Below, in pieces: positions 558 to 11,992 of a stretch of 12,196 nucleotides of DNA. Source of the stretch: a bacterium (lineage in GTDB: Bacteria; Pseudomonadota; Gammaproteobacteria; Burkholderiales; Thiobacteraceae); contig DAIAMA010000017.1 of the NCBI GenBank assembly GCA_027438535.1, positions 1-12,196 of the forward strand. The letters are read 5' to 3'. The number at the start of each line of letters is the position of its first letter. The stretch's first letter is position 1. The position numbers and the translations under genes were made by a program. Under the pieces are notes generated by a model. The model saw only the letters and a list, made by a program, of their open reading frames with translations. It was not told the DNA's origin and searched no databases.

Positions 558-3521
558 TTATTTGACTTTCGCCGTGCGGCGCAGCCGTGCCAGCAAGCGC
601 CGCGCCAATTCGCCGAACAATTCGGTCTGCGTCGGATGCGGGAAGATGGCTTCGGCGACTTGGGTCAGCGTCATGCCGCCCGAGACCATCATCACCGCCG
701 CGCCGATCAGCGTGTCGGTGTGATCGGCCAGGAAGTGCACGCCGATGATTTTTTGCGTGGCCTTGTCCGCGACCAGTTTGATCATGCCGGTGGTTTCTAA
801 AGCGATCATGGCTTTGGCGTCGATGCTCATCGGCATTTTCACTTCGGCGGCGTCGATGCCTTTGGCTTTCGCTTGCGCCACGGAGAGGCCGACAAAGCCC
901 GCTTCTGGGCGGCTGAAAGTGACGCCGCAATCGATGTCTTGATTGTAGTTGCGCGCATGACCGATGAGATTGGAAGCGGCGACGCGGCCCTGGGTGGCTG
1001 CGGTGTGTGCCAGCATGTAGCCGCCGACCACATCGCCCACCGCGTAAATATGCGGGGTGCTGGTGCGGCCGCTAGCGTCGGCTTTGATCGCCGCGCCGTC
1101 GAGCGCGACGCCGGTTTTGTCTAAATTAAGTTTGCTGGTATCGGGGCGCTTGCCGGTGGCCATGAGCACGTAATCGCAGGCGTATTCTTGCGCCTTGCCT
1201 TCCGTGTCCGTGTATTTGATCGCCATCTTGCCGGGCTTGCCGGAAATCTCGGTGATCTTGGCGGAGGTGACGACCGGAAATTCCGCCGTCAGCACGGCGG
1301 TGAGTTGCTTGGCGATTTCTTCCTCGATCTCGGCCAGAATGCGGTCCTTGGCTTCGAGCATCAGAATATCCGCGCCGAAGTCGCGCCAGATTTGCGCCAT
1401 CTCGACGCCGATCACGCCGCCGCCGATGATGCCGAGTTTTTTCGGCGGTTTGGGTAAACTCCAAATCGTATCGGAGGTGAGCACGCCGCCGCTGAGCACG
1501 CCTTCTTTTGCGCCGGGAATCGGCGGTACGAAGGGCGGGGCGCCGATGGCAATCACCGCCGCGCCGAAAGTCATGCGATAGGCTTCGCCCTGGGCGGGTT
1601 TGATTTCGGCGGTGTGCGCATCGACGAAAGATGCGAAACCTTCGCGCACGTCTATCTTCACGCCCTTATCGGTTTTCAGCGCCAGCTCGCCGCGCGTTTG
1701 CAGAATATTTTTGCGATGCGCTTCCAGCGCTTCCCATATCATCTTCGGTTTGTCGGTGCCGCTCACGCCTTTGGCGGCATCGTGTGCGCGGTCGCGGATG
1801 ATATCCGCCGCGTGGCGCCAGGCCTTGGAGGGAATGCAGCCGCGCCATAAGCATTCGCCGCCGGGTAGGGGGGCGTTGTTGATCATGGCAACTTTGATGC
1901 CATGGTCAGCGAGATCGCGCGCGCAATCTTCGCCGCCGGGACCGCCGCCGATGACCAACACTTGTACATCCCAGTTGCCTTCGGGAATGGGGGACATGGG
2001 TACGCTCTCCGCGTTGCTTAGCCAGGTTTCGGGGTTTTCGATCGTCTGTTTCAGATCGACTAAATAGGACGCCACATCCGCGCCATTCAGCACGCGATGA
2101 TCGGCGGTGATGGTGAAAGGCGTACCGTGCGGGCCATTAGCGGCAATCGCTAGGATCGCCGCGATGCCGGGCGTGGGGATGGCGGTGAAATGCGTGATGC
2201 CGTACATGCCCATATTGGAAATGGTGAATGTCGGATTGGCGAACTCGGCGGGCACCAGTTTGCGTACGCGGGCGCGCGGCACGAGATTATTCCATTCCGC
2301 TTGCAGCGCTTCGAGGTCTTTGCCGCCGATATCGTGCAGGATAGGCACGACCAAACCGCCATCGTCGCTTTTCACGGCGACACCGAAGTTGTGCTCGGTG
2401 CGTTCGATAAGTTTATCGACGGGCTGGTAGGCCCAATTCATGCGCGGATATTTTTGCATCGCCACCGAACAGGCTTTGGCGATGGCCACCGTCACCGAGA
2501 TTTTGCGCGCTTTCGCGCTCGCGGTGAGTTTGGCGGTGTCGATGTTCATGGTAGCGTCGAAAGTCGGCAGCGTGAGCGAGGCTGCCATGGCGTGCGACAC
2601 GGCCTTCTCCATGGAGCTCATGGCGCGGCCTTGGCCGGGCACATCGACTTGCGGCAGGCTATGCGCGACATCGGCCATGCTCGGGCGGGCGCGCTGCACG
2701 TCGGCGGCGACAATCACGCCTTCCGGCCCGCTGCCGGCGATGCCGCCGATATCCACGCCCAATTGCCCGGCGAGTTTGCGCGCATAGGGCGAGGCTTTGC
2801 GCCCGGCGGCGCGCGCGACGGGTTTAGCACTGCTTAGCGCCGGTAGCGGCGCGGCTTTGGGTGCGGGGGCCGCGGCGGGTTTGCCGTGCGAAGCCGGCAA
2901 TTTGTGATGCACATCGGTGACTTTATGTTCGGTGGTGATGGTCACGGCGGTATCCACCACTTTGCTCGCATCGCTCACGATAAAAGCCATCGGGTGGCCG
3001 ACCTCGACCACGCTGCCGACATCGGCCAGCGGGCCGGACAGAAAACCTTCGTGGAATACTTCCACATCCATGATGGCTTTATCGGTCTCGACCGTGGCGA
3101 CGATGTCGCCGCGCTTGATGACGCCGCCCATTTCTTTTTCCCAGGTCACGACCACGCCCTCGGTCATGGTGTCGGAGAGTTGCGGCATAACCACGGCGAT
3201 ACCGGCGTGATGCGGAATCATCTCGGACGGCGCTTGCTCGGTGACGACTTCATTTTGCGCGATGGCGAGATCGCCCGGCGTATCGGTGATATAGCCGAGC
3301 GCGGCGGCTACCGGCACGGTGCTGCCAATTTCCGCCAGCGGCCCCGCCAGATAGCCGGCCTTGAAGACTTCCACATCCATGATGGCCTTGTCGGTCTCGA
3401 CCGTGGCCACGATATCGCCGCGCTCCACGCGGTCGCCGGGCTGCTTTTCCCACGTCACCAATACCCCTTCGGTCATGGTGTCGGAGAGTTGCGGCATGGT
3501 GATGACGTAATGTGAACTCAT
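558..3521 (-). CDS. Pyruvate dehydrogenase E2-E3 fusion: dihydrolipoyl acetyltransferase plus dihydrolipoamide dehydrogenase
   Basis: One 987-residue polypeptide carries two enzymes of the pyruvate dehydrogenase complex. Domains in order: lipoyl domain 1 (about 5-79, ETDKA with lipoyl Lys45), lipoyl domain 2 (about 108-182, Lys148), an Ala/Pro-rich linker (about 205-240), a peripheral-subunit-binding domain (about 241-276, ASPYARKLA), and the E2 catalytic domain (about 297-500, active-site His475 in ADHRVLNG). E3 follows from about 517, with FAD motif GGGPGG (525-530), redox pair Cys557/Cys562 (ECLWRGCIPSK), NAD motif GIIGGGVIG (697-705), FAD motif YAVGDV (826-831), and the His962-Glu967 dyad in HPTQTE. 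All E3 catalytic residues are present. The E2 motif has Asn479 where most E2s have Asp. The E2 core reads most like the cyanobacterial/plastid type (HNFGVAVKSDDGGLVVPIL). The order E1 beta then E2-E3, 82 bases apart, supports a pyruvate complex; another 2-oxoacid substrate cannot be excluded. An AAAAGG site precedes the ATG. Confidence 0.9.
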   Translation of the reverse strand: MSSHYVITMPQLSDTMTEGVLVTWEKQPGDRVERGDIVATVETDKAIMDVEVFKAGYLAGPLAEIGSTVPVAAALGYITDTPGDLAIAQNEVVTEQAPSEMIPHHAGIAVVMPQLSDTMTEGVVVTWEKEMGGVIKRGDIVATVETDKAIMDVEVFHEGFLSGPLADVGSVVEVGHPMAFIVSDASKVVDTAVTITTEHKVTDVHHKLPASHGKPAAAPAPKAAPLPALSSAKPVARAAGRKASPYARKLAGQLGVDIGGIAGSGPEGVIVAADVQRARPSMADVAHSLPQVDVPGQGRAMSSMEKAVSHAMAASLTLPTFDATMNIDTAKLTASAKARKISVTVAIAKACSVAMQKYPRMNWAYQPVDKLIERTEHNFGVAVKSDDGGLVVPILHDIGGKDLEALQAEWNNLVPRARVRKLVPAEFANPTFTISNMGMYGITHFTAIPTPGIAAILAIAANGPHGTPFTITADHRVLNGADVASYLVDLKQTIENPETWLSNAESVPMSPIPEGNWDVQVLVIGGGPGGEDCARDLADHGIKVAMINNAPLPGGECLWRGCIPSKAWRHAADIIRDRAHDAAKGVSGTDKPKMIWEALEAHRKNILQTRGELALKTDKGVKIDVREGFASFVDAHTAEIKPAQGEAYRMTFGAAVIAIGAPPFVPPIPGAKEGVLSGGVLTSDTIWSLPKPPKKLGIIGGGVIGVEMAQIWRDFGADILMLEAKDRILAEIEEEIAKQLTAVLTAEFPVVTSAKITEISGKPGKMAIKYTDTEGKAQEYACDYVLMATGKRPDTSKLNLDKTGVALDGAAIKADASGRTSTPHIYAVGDVVGGYMLAHTAATQGRVAASNLIGHARNYNQDIDCGVTFSRPEAGFVGLSVAQAKAKGIDAAEVKMPMSIDAKAMIALETTGMIKLVADKATQKIIGVHFLADHTDTLIGAAVMMVSGGMTLTQVAEAIFPHPTQTELFGELARRLLARLRRTAKVK
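2976..3509 (-). repeat. Tandem lipoyl-domain duplication inside the E2-E3 gene
   Basis: The two lipoyl-domain coding segments (about 3285-3509 and 2976-3200) repeat with a 309-base offset. The best-preserved stretches at DNA level are 3061-3114 and 3370-3423, which encode the lipoyl-lysine region and differ at only a few, mostly third-codon, positions. This indicates a fairly recent internal duplication or gene conversion between the domains. Confidence 0.8.
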
Positions 3522-3603: not shown

Positions 3604-4587
3604 TTAAGCTTTTCCGAACAGCTTCAATACCGCGTTGACCACGTCTTCGTGGTCGGGAATCGCGGCCATTTCCAGCTTGTGATTATAGGGTTGCGGCACC
3701 AGCGCCGAATGCACGCGCAGCGGCGCGGCATCCAGATCGAAGAAGCATTCTTCGTTGATGATGGCCATGACCTCGGAACCGACGCCGCACGGCGCTTCGT
3801 CTTCTTCGGCGATCACCGCGCGGTGGGTTTTGGATACGGACTTCTTGATACCCGCGCGGTCGAGCGGGGAGAGCGCATACAGATCCACCACTTCGGCGCT
3901 GATATGGTATTGCGTGGAAAGAATTTCCGCCGCTTTCAGACACCAATGCACCGAGATGTTGTAGCCGAATAGCGTGACATCGGTACCGGCGCGCGCGATC
4001 TCGGAGCCTTCCAGCGGGTGAAAATATTCGCCATCCGGCACCTCGCCCTTCATGTTGTACATGAGCTCGTGTTCGTAGAGGAACACCGGGTCGTCCGAAC
4101 GCACCGCGGATTTGAGCAGGCCATACGCTTGTTTGGGATTGGAGGGCGTCACTACGCGTAAGCCCGCCACCCCCATGAATACTTTTTCCATGCGCGCCGA
4201 GTGTTGCGCGCCTAATTGATGCGCGCTGCCGCCGGGGGAACGGAACACGACCGGGGCGGTGAGTTGGCCGCCCGACATATAGCGCACCTTGGCGGCGGAG
4301 TTGAACATCTGATCCATGGCCAGCCACGCAAAGTTGACCGACATGATTTCGATAATCGGGCGCACACCCAAGAACGACGCGCCGATGCCCAGGCCGGTAT
4401 AACTGTTTTCAGAAATCGGCGTATCCATCACGCGCAGCGGGCCGTATTTTTCATACAAGCCCTTGGTGGCCTTGTAGGTGCCGCCGGCCACGCCGATGTC
4501 CTCGCCCATGCAGATCACCAGCGGGTCGCGCGCCATTTCTTCGTCGTGCGCGCGTTGCAGCGCTTCCCAATACATCATTTCAGCCAT
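3604..4587 (-). CDS. pdhB: Pyruvate dehydrogenase E1 component, beta subunit
   Basis: This 327-residue protein is the usual length for the beta subunit of heterotetrameric (alpha2beta2) 2-oxoacid dehydrogenase E1. With the alpha subunit it performs thiamine-diphosphate-dependent decarboxylation of pyruvate and acetylates the E2 lipoyl group. Visible family features: MGEDIGVAGGTYKAT (about 27-41), DTPISE with Glu60 at the position that activates the thiamine ring, NFAWLAMDQMFNSAAK, the AQHSARME region, VVTPSNPKQAYGLLKSA, and a C-terminal transketolase-like domain (about 200-320). An AAAGGA ribosome site precedes the ATG. The next gene downstream is the E2-E3 fusion; the next gene upstream is ppnP-like, so no E1 alpha is adjacent, which is odd because alpha and beta are normally neighbours. 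The symbol is by family; acetoin dehydrogenase (acoB) or a branched-chain enzyme are alternatives. Confidence 0.9.
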   Translation of the reverse strand: MAEMMYWEALQRAHDEEMARDPLVICMGEDIGVAGGTYKATKGLYEKYGPLRVMDTPISENSYTGLGIGASFLGVRPIIEIMSVNFAWLAMDQMFNSAAKVRYMSGGQLTAPVVFRSPGGSAHQLGAQHSARMEKVFMGVAGLRVVTPSNPKQAYGLLKSAVRSDDPVFLYEHELMYNMKGEVPDGEYFHPLEGSEIARAGTDVTLFGYNISVHWCLKAAEILSTQYHISAEVVDLYALSPLDRAGIKKSVSKTHRAVIAEEDEAPCGVGSEVMAIINEECFFDLDAAPLRVHSALVPQPYNHKLEMAAIPDHEDVVNAVLKLFGKA

Positions 4588-6313: not shown

Positions 6314-6541
6314 CTAGTGGGCGGCGCCTGTCACGGCATGCACTTCACCGGGGAAGTTGCCCACGCGCAAGAGATCCAAATTCGTTTGTTTGCTCGCGTG
6401 CTCGATCTCGATGCCGACCACGCGGCCGTCCTCGGAGAGATTCAGCACCACGCCGGCATGCGCTTCCCAGGCTTGCGTAGCGTTCTCCGGAGAGAGTTCG
6501 ATGTAGAGCGTGTCCATGTCTTTAAAGTAGGCGATATTCAT
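6314..6541 (-). CDS. DUF2283 family small protein in the arginine operon
   Basis: This 75-residue protein has the DUF2283 pattern: MNIAYFKDMDTLYIELS at the N-terminus, then GVVLNLSEDGRVVGIEIEHASK (GVxLxxxEDGxVVGIEIxxAS). The family has no established biochemical role. The start at 6541 is set by homology and by the ATGA overlap: its ATG overlaps the argF TGA by four bases, so translation is probably coupled to argF. The open frame extends further upstream, but that part lies inside argF and is not family-like. The stop is TAG, 22 bases before the argG GTG. DUF2283 genes are not usual members of arginine operons as far as I know. Confidence 0.85.
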   Translation of the reverse strand: MNIAYFKDMDTLYIELSPENATQAWEAHAGVVLNLSEDGRVVGIEIEHASKQTNLDLLRVGNFPGEVHAVTGAAH

Positions 6542-8720: not shown

Positions 8721-9197
8721 TTAGAAGCCGTGCACACCCACACCCATACAGAACAGCATGGGGATAGACAGCATCGTATTGGTGCGCGAAGCAAGGAAAG
8801 CGACGCGGCGCGCCTTGGCTTTTTCCGCATCCGTGGCGGGCACCATACCGAGAATTTTCTTCTGGTTAGGCCAAATCAGCACCCACACATTGAACAGCAT
8901 GATGGTGCCGAGCCAAGCGCCGATGCCGATAAAGGCGACACTGGCTTGCAAGGTGAACGCAGGCACGAAGCGCGGGCCGAGCAATGCCGCGCCGGCGAGC
9001 CACGTCACCACGGCGGCCCAGCGGAAGAACAGTAGCGCGCGCGGCGCGACATGTTTGGTGATGCCGGCACCGGTGCCGTCTTCGGCGGCGGCTTTGAGCG
9101 CGGCCACTTGCACGAAGTTGAAGTAATACAACAGGCCGATCCACATCACGCCGGCCATAAAGTGAATCCAACGAAAAATCGCCATCGAATGTTCCAT
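8721..9197 (-). CDS. Four-span membrane protein resembling the PuuD (urate hydroxylase) N-terminal domain
   Basis: This 158-residue protein has four hydrophobic segments (about 8-31, 54-74, 84-109 and 139-157), so it is an inner-membrane protein. Conserved-looking stretches, FRWIHFMAGVMWIGLLYYFNFVQV, the MLFNVWVLIWPNQKKILG loop and ASRTNTMLSIPMLFCMGVG, recall the membrane domain of PuuD-type urate hydroxylases. Bona fide PuuD is much longer and ends in a cytochrome c domain; here there is no CXXCH and no soluble domain, so urate oxidation should not be assumed. His12 and His49 could serve a haem or metal, but that is a guess. It starts three bases after the stop of the 33-residue gene, whose end provides AAGGGG as ribosome site, so the two are very probably one operon. 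Confidence 0.8.
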   Translation of the reverse strand: MEHSMAIFRWIHFMAGVMWIGLLYYFNFVQVAALKAAAEDGTGAGITKHVAPRALLFFRWAAVVTWLAGAALLGPRFVPAFTLQASVAFIGIGAWLGTIMLFNVWVLIWPNQKKILGMVPATDAEKAKARRVAFLASRTNTMLSIPMLFCMGVGVHGF

Positions 9198-10450: not shown

Positions 10451-11992
10451 ATGAATTTACTCAAAGCGCTCGCGACCATGAGCGCCATGACGCTACTCTC
10501 GCGCATCTTGGGTTTCGTGCGCGATACGGTGATCGCGCGCGTTTTTGGCGCGGGGCTGATGACCGATGCGTTTTTCGTCGCGTTCAAGATTCCGAACCTA
10601 TTGCGCCGTCTATTCGCCGAAGGCGCTTTTTCGCAGGCTTTCGTGCCGATTCTGGGCGAGTACAAGGCCAAGCGCAGTTTCAACGAGACGCATCAACTGA
10701 TCGACGATGTGGCCGGCTTGCTCGGCCTGGCGCTGTTTATCGTGACGTTGATCGGTGTGATAGCGGCACCGGTTGTCATTTATCTCAGCGCGCCCGGCTT
10801 CTCGGCCGATGCGCAGAAATTCGATGTCACGGTGACCCTGCTGCGCATTATTTTTCCGTATATCTTTTTTATTTCCCTGGTCGCTTTCGCGGGTGGCATT
10901 CTCAATACCTATAGTCGATTCTGGGTGCCGGCCTTCACGCCGGTGCTGTTGAATCTTTCCATGATCGCCGGCGCCTTGTGGCTCGCGCCGCACGTCCACC
11001 CGCCGGTGCTGGCGCTCGCGTGGTCGGTGGCGCTGGGCGGCGTGTTGCAGCTCGCTTTCCAAGTGCCATTTCTGCTCAGGCTCAAATTGCTGCCGCGTTT
11101 CCGGCTGAATTTTCACGATGCCGGGGTGTGGCGTATCTTGCGTCTGATGGGCCCCGCGCTATTCGGCGTGTCGATTAGCCAAATCTCGCTGCTGATCAAT
11201 ACGATTTTTGCATCGTTTTTAGTGACCGGCAGCGTGACATGGCTGTATTACGCGGATCGCTTGATGGAATTTCCTACCGCTTTGCTCGGCGTGGCCTAGG
11301 GCACGACTCTGTTGCCTAGTTTATCCAAGCATTACGCCGACGCGTCGCACGAAGAATATTCCAAGCTGCTGGATTGGGGCTTGCGGCTTACGCTCTTGCT
11401 CGCGTTGCCGGCGGCGCTGGCTCTGGCGCTGCTCGCGGTGCCCTTGATCGCGACACTCTTTTATTATGGCAAATTCACCGCGCACGATTTGTTCATGACG
11501 CGCGAAGCGCTGATGGCCTATAGCCTCGGCCTGCTCGGGTTGATCATGGTGAAAATCCTCGCCCCCGGTTTCTATGCGCGGCAAAATATCCGCACGCCGG
11601 TAAAAATCGCCGTGGCCACGCTGTTCGCCACGCAACTCATGAACCTGGCTTTCGTTTGGCAGCTCAAGCATGCCGGGCTTGCGCTCTCGATCGGCTTGGG
11701 CGCGTGCTTGAATGCGAGTTTGCTGTTGTATCACTTGCGCAAGGCGGGGGTGTATGCGCCACAGCCGGGCTGGTATGTTTTTTTTCTCAAAGTGGCGGCC
11801 GCCTTGGTGTTGATGGGGGCCGCATTGCTTTGGGCGATGGGAGATGCGCAGGCTTGGCTGCAGATGCGCGCCGGGGAGAAGGTAGGGCATCTGGCGGTGC
11901 TGGTGGCGATTGGCGCGGGCGTTTATTTCGTCACGCTCTACGTGCTGGGGCTGCGGCTGCGTCATTTCGTGAAACGCGGCGCGCCGGAATAG
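10451..11992 (+). pseudogene. murJ: Lipid II flippase MurJ, interrupted by in-frame TAG at codon 283
   Basis: The frame from 10451 to 11992 spans 514 codons including the final stop and reads as a full-length MurJ (MviN), the MOP-superfamily transporter that moves lipid II across the inner membrane for peptidoglycan synthesis. Residues shown to matter in E. coli MurJ fall at the same numbers: Arg18, Arg24, Asp39, Arg52 and Arg270. Codon 283 (11297-11299) is TAG, in the stretch LLGVA-stop-GTTLLPSLSKHYA, where homologues have LLGVALGT. Homology continues without frameshift to a normal C-terminus, with many further hydrophobic spans. TTG to TAG is a single change. Translation stopping here would give about 282 residues and lose roughly the last six of 14 spans. 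A TTG at 11312 could restart the second half, but without a visible ribosome site. The options are true nonsense mutation, readthrough or sequence error. The stop at 11990 is also TAG. Confidence 0.85.

Follow-up and report, generated by a model that had tools for sequence, protein, structure and literature searches.

Known MurJ proteins and interrupted reading frames

MurJ, the lipid II flippase of the MOP superfamily (Pfam PF03023), has an N-lobe of transmembrane helices 1-6, a C-lobe of helices 7-12 and two last helices, 13 and 14, as laid out in the accessible part of PMC6465408. In the available excerpts of two further papers, MurJ is required in E. coli and H. pylori Wzk can substitute for it (PMC4990322), and a B. 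subtilis strain can live without any of its four MurJ homologues (PMC12096821). The first-pass annotation of the DNA studied here called MurJ usually essential, which these excerpts bear out for E. coli and not for every bacterium. Two other kinds of system resemble an interrupted murJ: isolated premature stops in draft genomes, which stem from error or from a strain pseudogene, and amber recoding or suppression, where an in-frame TAG stands at a codon that is sense in relatives. The literature was searched for murJ nonsense mutations and for metagenome assemblies with premature stops, and nothing useful came of it.

We analyzed a window, i.e. the whole stretch of DNA under study (12,196 nucleotides, contig C88), from the draft genome (GCA_027438535.1) of a betaproteobacterium of the Thiobacteraceae, to all appearances uncultured, with 1,748,319 bases in 497 contigs ranging down to 500 bases; the draft is 66.15% complete and 1.72% contaminated. 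Its murJ is alignable over about 509 residues with the solved MurJ chains 6cc4 and 7waw (PDB), which we take to be E. coli MurJ, and codon 283 aligns without gaps to their residue 283. It differs from the known family in carrying a TAG at residue 283 and a threonine at residue 286. The lone stop, the conserved frame, the fragmentary assembly and the adjoining second anomaly liken it to the isolated stops of draft genomes. Amber recoding or suppression has the in-frame TAG in common with it; here, in contrast, TAG is an ordinary terminator, and the 12 tRNAs found include no suppressor.

A murJ frame interrupted once

The murJ reading frame occupies 10451..11992 on the plus strand (513 codons and a terminal TAG). 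In frame with its ATG at 10451, a TAG stands at codon 283 (11297..11299, plus strand), a column occupied by Leu in all 120 of the closest homologous proteins listed, of 7,999 scored; three codons away, codon 286 (11306..11308, plus strand) encodes Thr where the same 120 all have Ile. Both departures had been pointed out in the first-pass annotation, and its description of the frame as unbroken on either side also holds, the remainder being open to a second TAG at 11990..11992 that lies at most 2 residues from the end of the orthologue in the congener G003. The 282-residue N-terminal piece (10451..11299, plus strand) matches positions 1-252 of the 451-position PF03023 profile, and the 226-residue C-terminal piece, taken from the first downstream TTG (11312..11992, plus strand), matches positions 258-441 in register. 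Counted across the stop, the whole frame scores 469.2 bits (E 4.8e-141) over positions 1-441 of 451, above the curated cut-off of the family and with near-full coverage of the domain; as assembled, the TAG at codon 283 breaks what would otherwise be an uninterrupted frame of about 512 codons. Arg18, Arg24, Asp39, Arg52 and Arg270, presumably the conserved residues of MurJ (the list combines that annotation with general knowledge), are all present in the translation.

Given the lobe layout in the available text of PMC6465408, a product that stops after residue 282 should be without the final two helices and the greater part of the C-lobe, and we infer that a MurJ cut at this point would be inactive. 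The TAG region (11296-11300) has a 5-bp inverted match with CCTAG at 11315-11319, and the predicted RNA fold places the TAG in a 5-bp stem with this downstream element. Since the RNA around the TAG is not more stable than its shuffles (z -0.26), nothing is made of the stem.

Elsewhere in the window, a 987-residue ORF (558-3521, minus strand) combines two lipoyl domains, an E3-binding domain, a 2-oxoacid dehydrogenase acyltransferase and a pyridine-nucleotide disulphide oxidoreductase; going by the domain matches, we read the acyltransferase as a putative E2 and the oxidoreductase as a putative E3 of the dihydrolipoyl dehydrogenase kind. Upstream of this fusion lies a transketolase-like gene (3604-4587), by our own reading of E1-beta type. 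A 158-residue protein (8721-9197, minus strand) matches the Urate_ox_N domain family, with its best stretch at profile positions 168-235 of 295.

Codons 283 and 286 among relatives

At the DNA level, 115 aligned murJ loci were reduced to 108 by removing two that belong to the window itself and another five with less than 60% identity; some of the 108 may duplicate one genome. None of them has a stop at column 283 (Leu in 100, Ile in 8) and none has Thr at column 286 (Ile in 92, Val in 16). A survey of 60 genomes, with the source included and one main murJ copy taken per genome, provided the comparison with close relatives that had been proposed as a check, and the main copy is free of stops in 59 of the 59 other genomes. 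In an order-level survey, 391 of 399 genomes have a murJ, and the best-scoring matches listed are all stop-free; because these are the best-scoring matches only, with the window's own murJ among the lower-scoring ones outside them and the argG control under the same limit, this survey is not used as a rate and the 59 of 59 are used instead.

The nearest protein, P0001, is identical at 263 of 282 residues before the stop and at 210 of 230 after it. A truncated MurJ twin was sought in the protein database, and nothing closer than 83% appeared among the matches listed; this is weak evidence, the database being clustered at 90% so that truncated and intact versions could hide in the P0001 cluster (92% identical, 7 members). 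Ranked by the N-terminal part of murJ, the nearest 80 named loci reach 78% identity at best and come mostly from drafts of uncultured Betaproteobacteria and Nitrosomonadales. A murJ 73-76% identical to that of the window also occurs in two drafts titled Bordetella parapertussis (L064, L070) and in one titled Chitinophaga pinensis (L041), names that look misassigned. The congener G006 carries, at C16:80622-81908, a second, divergent MurJ-like copy with an internal TGA and TAG, perhaps a decaying paralogue.

We also considered how the two anomalies lie with respect to one another. Of the 197 near-invariant columns of murJ (those conserved in at least 99% of the 120 homologues), only 283 and 286 are altered in the window. 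Two near-invariant columns chosen at random lie within three codons of each other in 280 of 19,306 pairs (1.45%), a figure that was worked out post hoc, once the 283/286 pair was known. As far as the alignment can tell, this proximity speaks for a single local fault rather than for mutations that arose independently. The count of two is itself not unusual, as at least two deviations at near-invariant columns occur in 16 of the 120 homologues, and when the comparison is confined to nine close relatives, 9 of 317 invariant columns differ in the window.

Selection on either side of the stop

Ratios of dN/dS were obtained for the window against the congeners G003, G007, G002 and G006, with four pairs of intact congeners as the reference. 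Over codons 1-282 the window gives 0.042-0.107 and the intact pairs 0.041-0.061; over codons 287-511 the respective ranges are 0.094-0.149 and 0.065-0.133, all of these ratios being rough because dS is about 0.9 or higher in most pairs. In some pairs the window is somewhat raised on either side of the stop. Since the values behind the stop are close to those of intact congeners, the downstream part of murJ is, to judge from these ratios, under purifying selection much as in its intact relatives and shows no decay of its own.

TAG as a terminator, tRNAs and release factors

Among 81 orthologous 3' ends examined between the source draft and G003, 74 are equal in length within 2 residues, and these terminate in TAA (36), TGA (25) or TAG (13, with that of murJ among them). 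TAG is thus an ordinary stop, and global recoding is ruled out. The same had been argued beforehand from two genes of the window that end in TAG, DUF302 (ending at 500) and DUF2283 (minus strand, ending at 6314); both ends are as described, and murJ's own TAG terminator had gone unmentioned. Amber recoding would make TAG rare or absent as a terminator and scatter many in-frame TAGs through the genes, and here only the stop in murJ is convincing out of 16 flagged.

No tRNA with a CUA anticodon, as a suppressor would require, is among the 12 tRNAs found in the roughly 66% complete assembly. No RF-1-domain match was detected in the source assembly either, and each of seven congeners has three (in G004, a single gene broken across contigs may account for two of them). 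At 66% completeness, the chance of missing every one of them would be about 4% by our estimate if losses are independent, which is somewhat unlikely. RF1 and release factor 2 are members of one family. The absence is probably a gap in the assembly, since release factor 2 would have gone too, yet TGA and TAG both terminate genes here.

Error level of the draft

The error survey covered 77 of the 497 contigs of the source draft, G000 (509,872 bases, including 8,842 N), which were set against ORFs drawn from 61 G003 pieces (832,377 bases). It flagged 16 stops in 32,074 aligned residues, of which that in murJ alone is convincing: it falls at position 287 of 515 in this comparison, with 261 of 286 residues identical before it and 202 of 228 after. 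The other 15 were set aside, eight (five in L214, one in L143 and two at the start of argG) because they lie under a stop-free, well-matching frame of another gene, and the rest because they are at most 8 residues from the end of an alignment. Two frameshifts were flagged, and the one in L202 (about 1098-1103), a shift against the G003 orthologue, stands; the one in L138 falls, by our own reading, at the boundary between two genes that both lie on the opposite strand. The reverse comparison, of G000 ORFs on G003 (31,708 residues), flagged 4 stops and 2 frameshifts, and one of these stops, 63 of 407 residues in, lies under another frame. With one convincing stop and one standing frameshift in the compared contigs, the source draft is free of widespread error, which neither proves nor excludes an error at murJ. 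A gene in L214 matches its G003 counterpart from residue 65 on only; its abrupt start at base 694, with no run of N, may be a misjoin or a rearrangement.

Candidate backup flippases

The first-pass annotation had suggested looking for amj or a second murJ, and the search for a backup flippase covered MurJ and Amj. Neither by profile nor by DNA (where 40 of 57 candidates were scored) did the incomplete source assembly yield a second or strain-variant MurJ. No Amj (PF10997) is present in this assembly or in any of 8 genus genomes, with control matches recovered in B. subtilis, so Amj is ruled out as a backup in the genus. About a third of the genome is unassembled, and a backup transporter could therefore be missed.

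Origin of the stop

We consider it probable that the TAG at codon 283 is a local error of the draft sequence in an otherwise intact murJ, and this is the likeliest account. Faulty reads or faulty assembly, at a place where coverage was thin or strains were mixed, would have yielded the TAG, and the Thr at codon 286 would most likely belong to the same fault, which would then span codons 283-286; the organism would make an ordinary full-length MurJ, and we infer that its cells are without the stop. The fragmentary draft, the clustering of the two anomalies, the constraint behind the stop, the 59 stop-free relatives and the ordinary use of TAG all argue for an error, as do the lack of a second MurJ in the assembly and of Amj in the genus. 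Against it, the draft is not generally error-ridden, two deviations are not unusual, nine deviations appear when close relatives alone are compared, the clustering figure is post hoc, and dN/dS is somewhat raised before the stop too. A genuine and very recent nonsense allele, carried by the sampled strain or by a minority of the population, ranks next, and we regard it as unlikely. Such an allele would cut MurJ within the C-lobe and would either be lost by selection or be tolerated through another lipid II transporter. The TAG is present in the assembled sequence of a draft with few other true stops, MurJ is dispensable in some bacteria according to the available excerpts (PMC4990322, PMC12096821), and a backup may sit in the unassembled third of the genome; the searches for Amj and a second MurJ point the other way, however, as does the absence of any decay peculiar to the downstream part, and one fresh mutation would not be expected to leave another invariant column altered at a distance of three codons. 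Among the four explanations originally listed (sequence error, a nonsense mutation tolerated through a flippase such as Amj, suppressor read-through and a restart), sequence error is accordingly the best supported, and an Amj backup finds no support.

It is improbable that the stop is real and that the lineage lives with it, whether through a two-piece MurJ restarting at TTG 11312 or through read-through of this one TAG while TAG elsewhere terminates. Termination at the TAG followed by a restart, with the halves assembling into a flippase, strikes us as very improbable: the frame does resume at a TTG 12 bases past the stop, behind a weak AGGG, and both halves are conserved and in register with the profile, but the break at residue 283 would fall inside the C-lobe rather than at a lobe boundary (as placed on the layout in the accessible part of PMC6465408), none of the 59 main copies in relatives is split, and the local RNA does not exceed its shuffles in stability. 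The restart is thus possible on paper, with nothing positive for it. Insertion of an amino acid at codon 283 by a suppressor tRNA or programmed read-through, giving full-length MurJ, is more doubtful still. Purifying selection downstream would fit it, and so would the missing RF-1-domain matches, for which incompleteness is the simpler reason; it is at odds with the TAG ends of 13 of the 74 length-matched orthologues, murJ included, with the lack of a CUA anticodon among the 12 tRNAs found, with the want of any other convincing read-through stop in the aligned residues and with the lack of a notably stable RNA structure. Neither of these two models has positive evidence beyond downstream conservation.

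Implications

The evidence on the murJ stop speaks for an error confined to this part of the sequence, or for a single mutation of very recent date, rather than for new biology. If it is an error, the locus serves as a caution only: one stop codon inside a usually essential gene says little about biology when the draft is fragmentary. If the TAG is real, a betaproteobacterium, Gram-negative and without Amj, would be living with a MurJ that is truncated or split, which would bear on how far lipid II transport needs MurJ.
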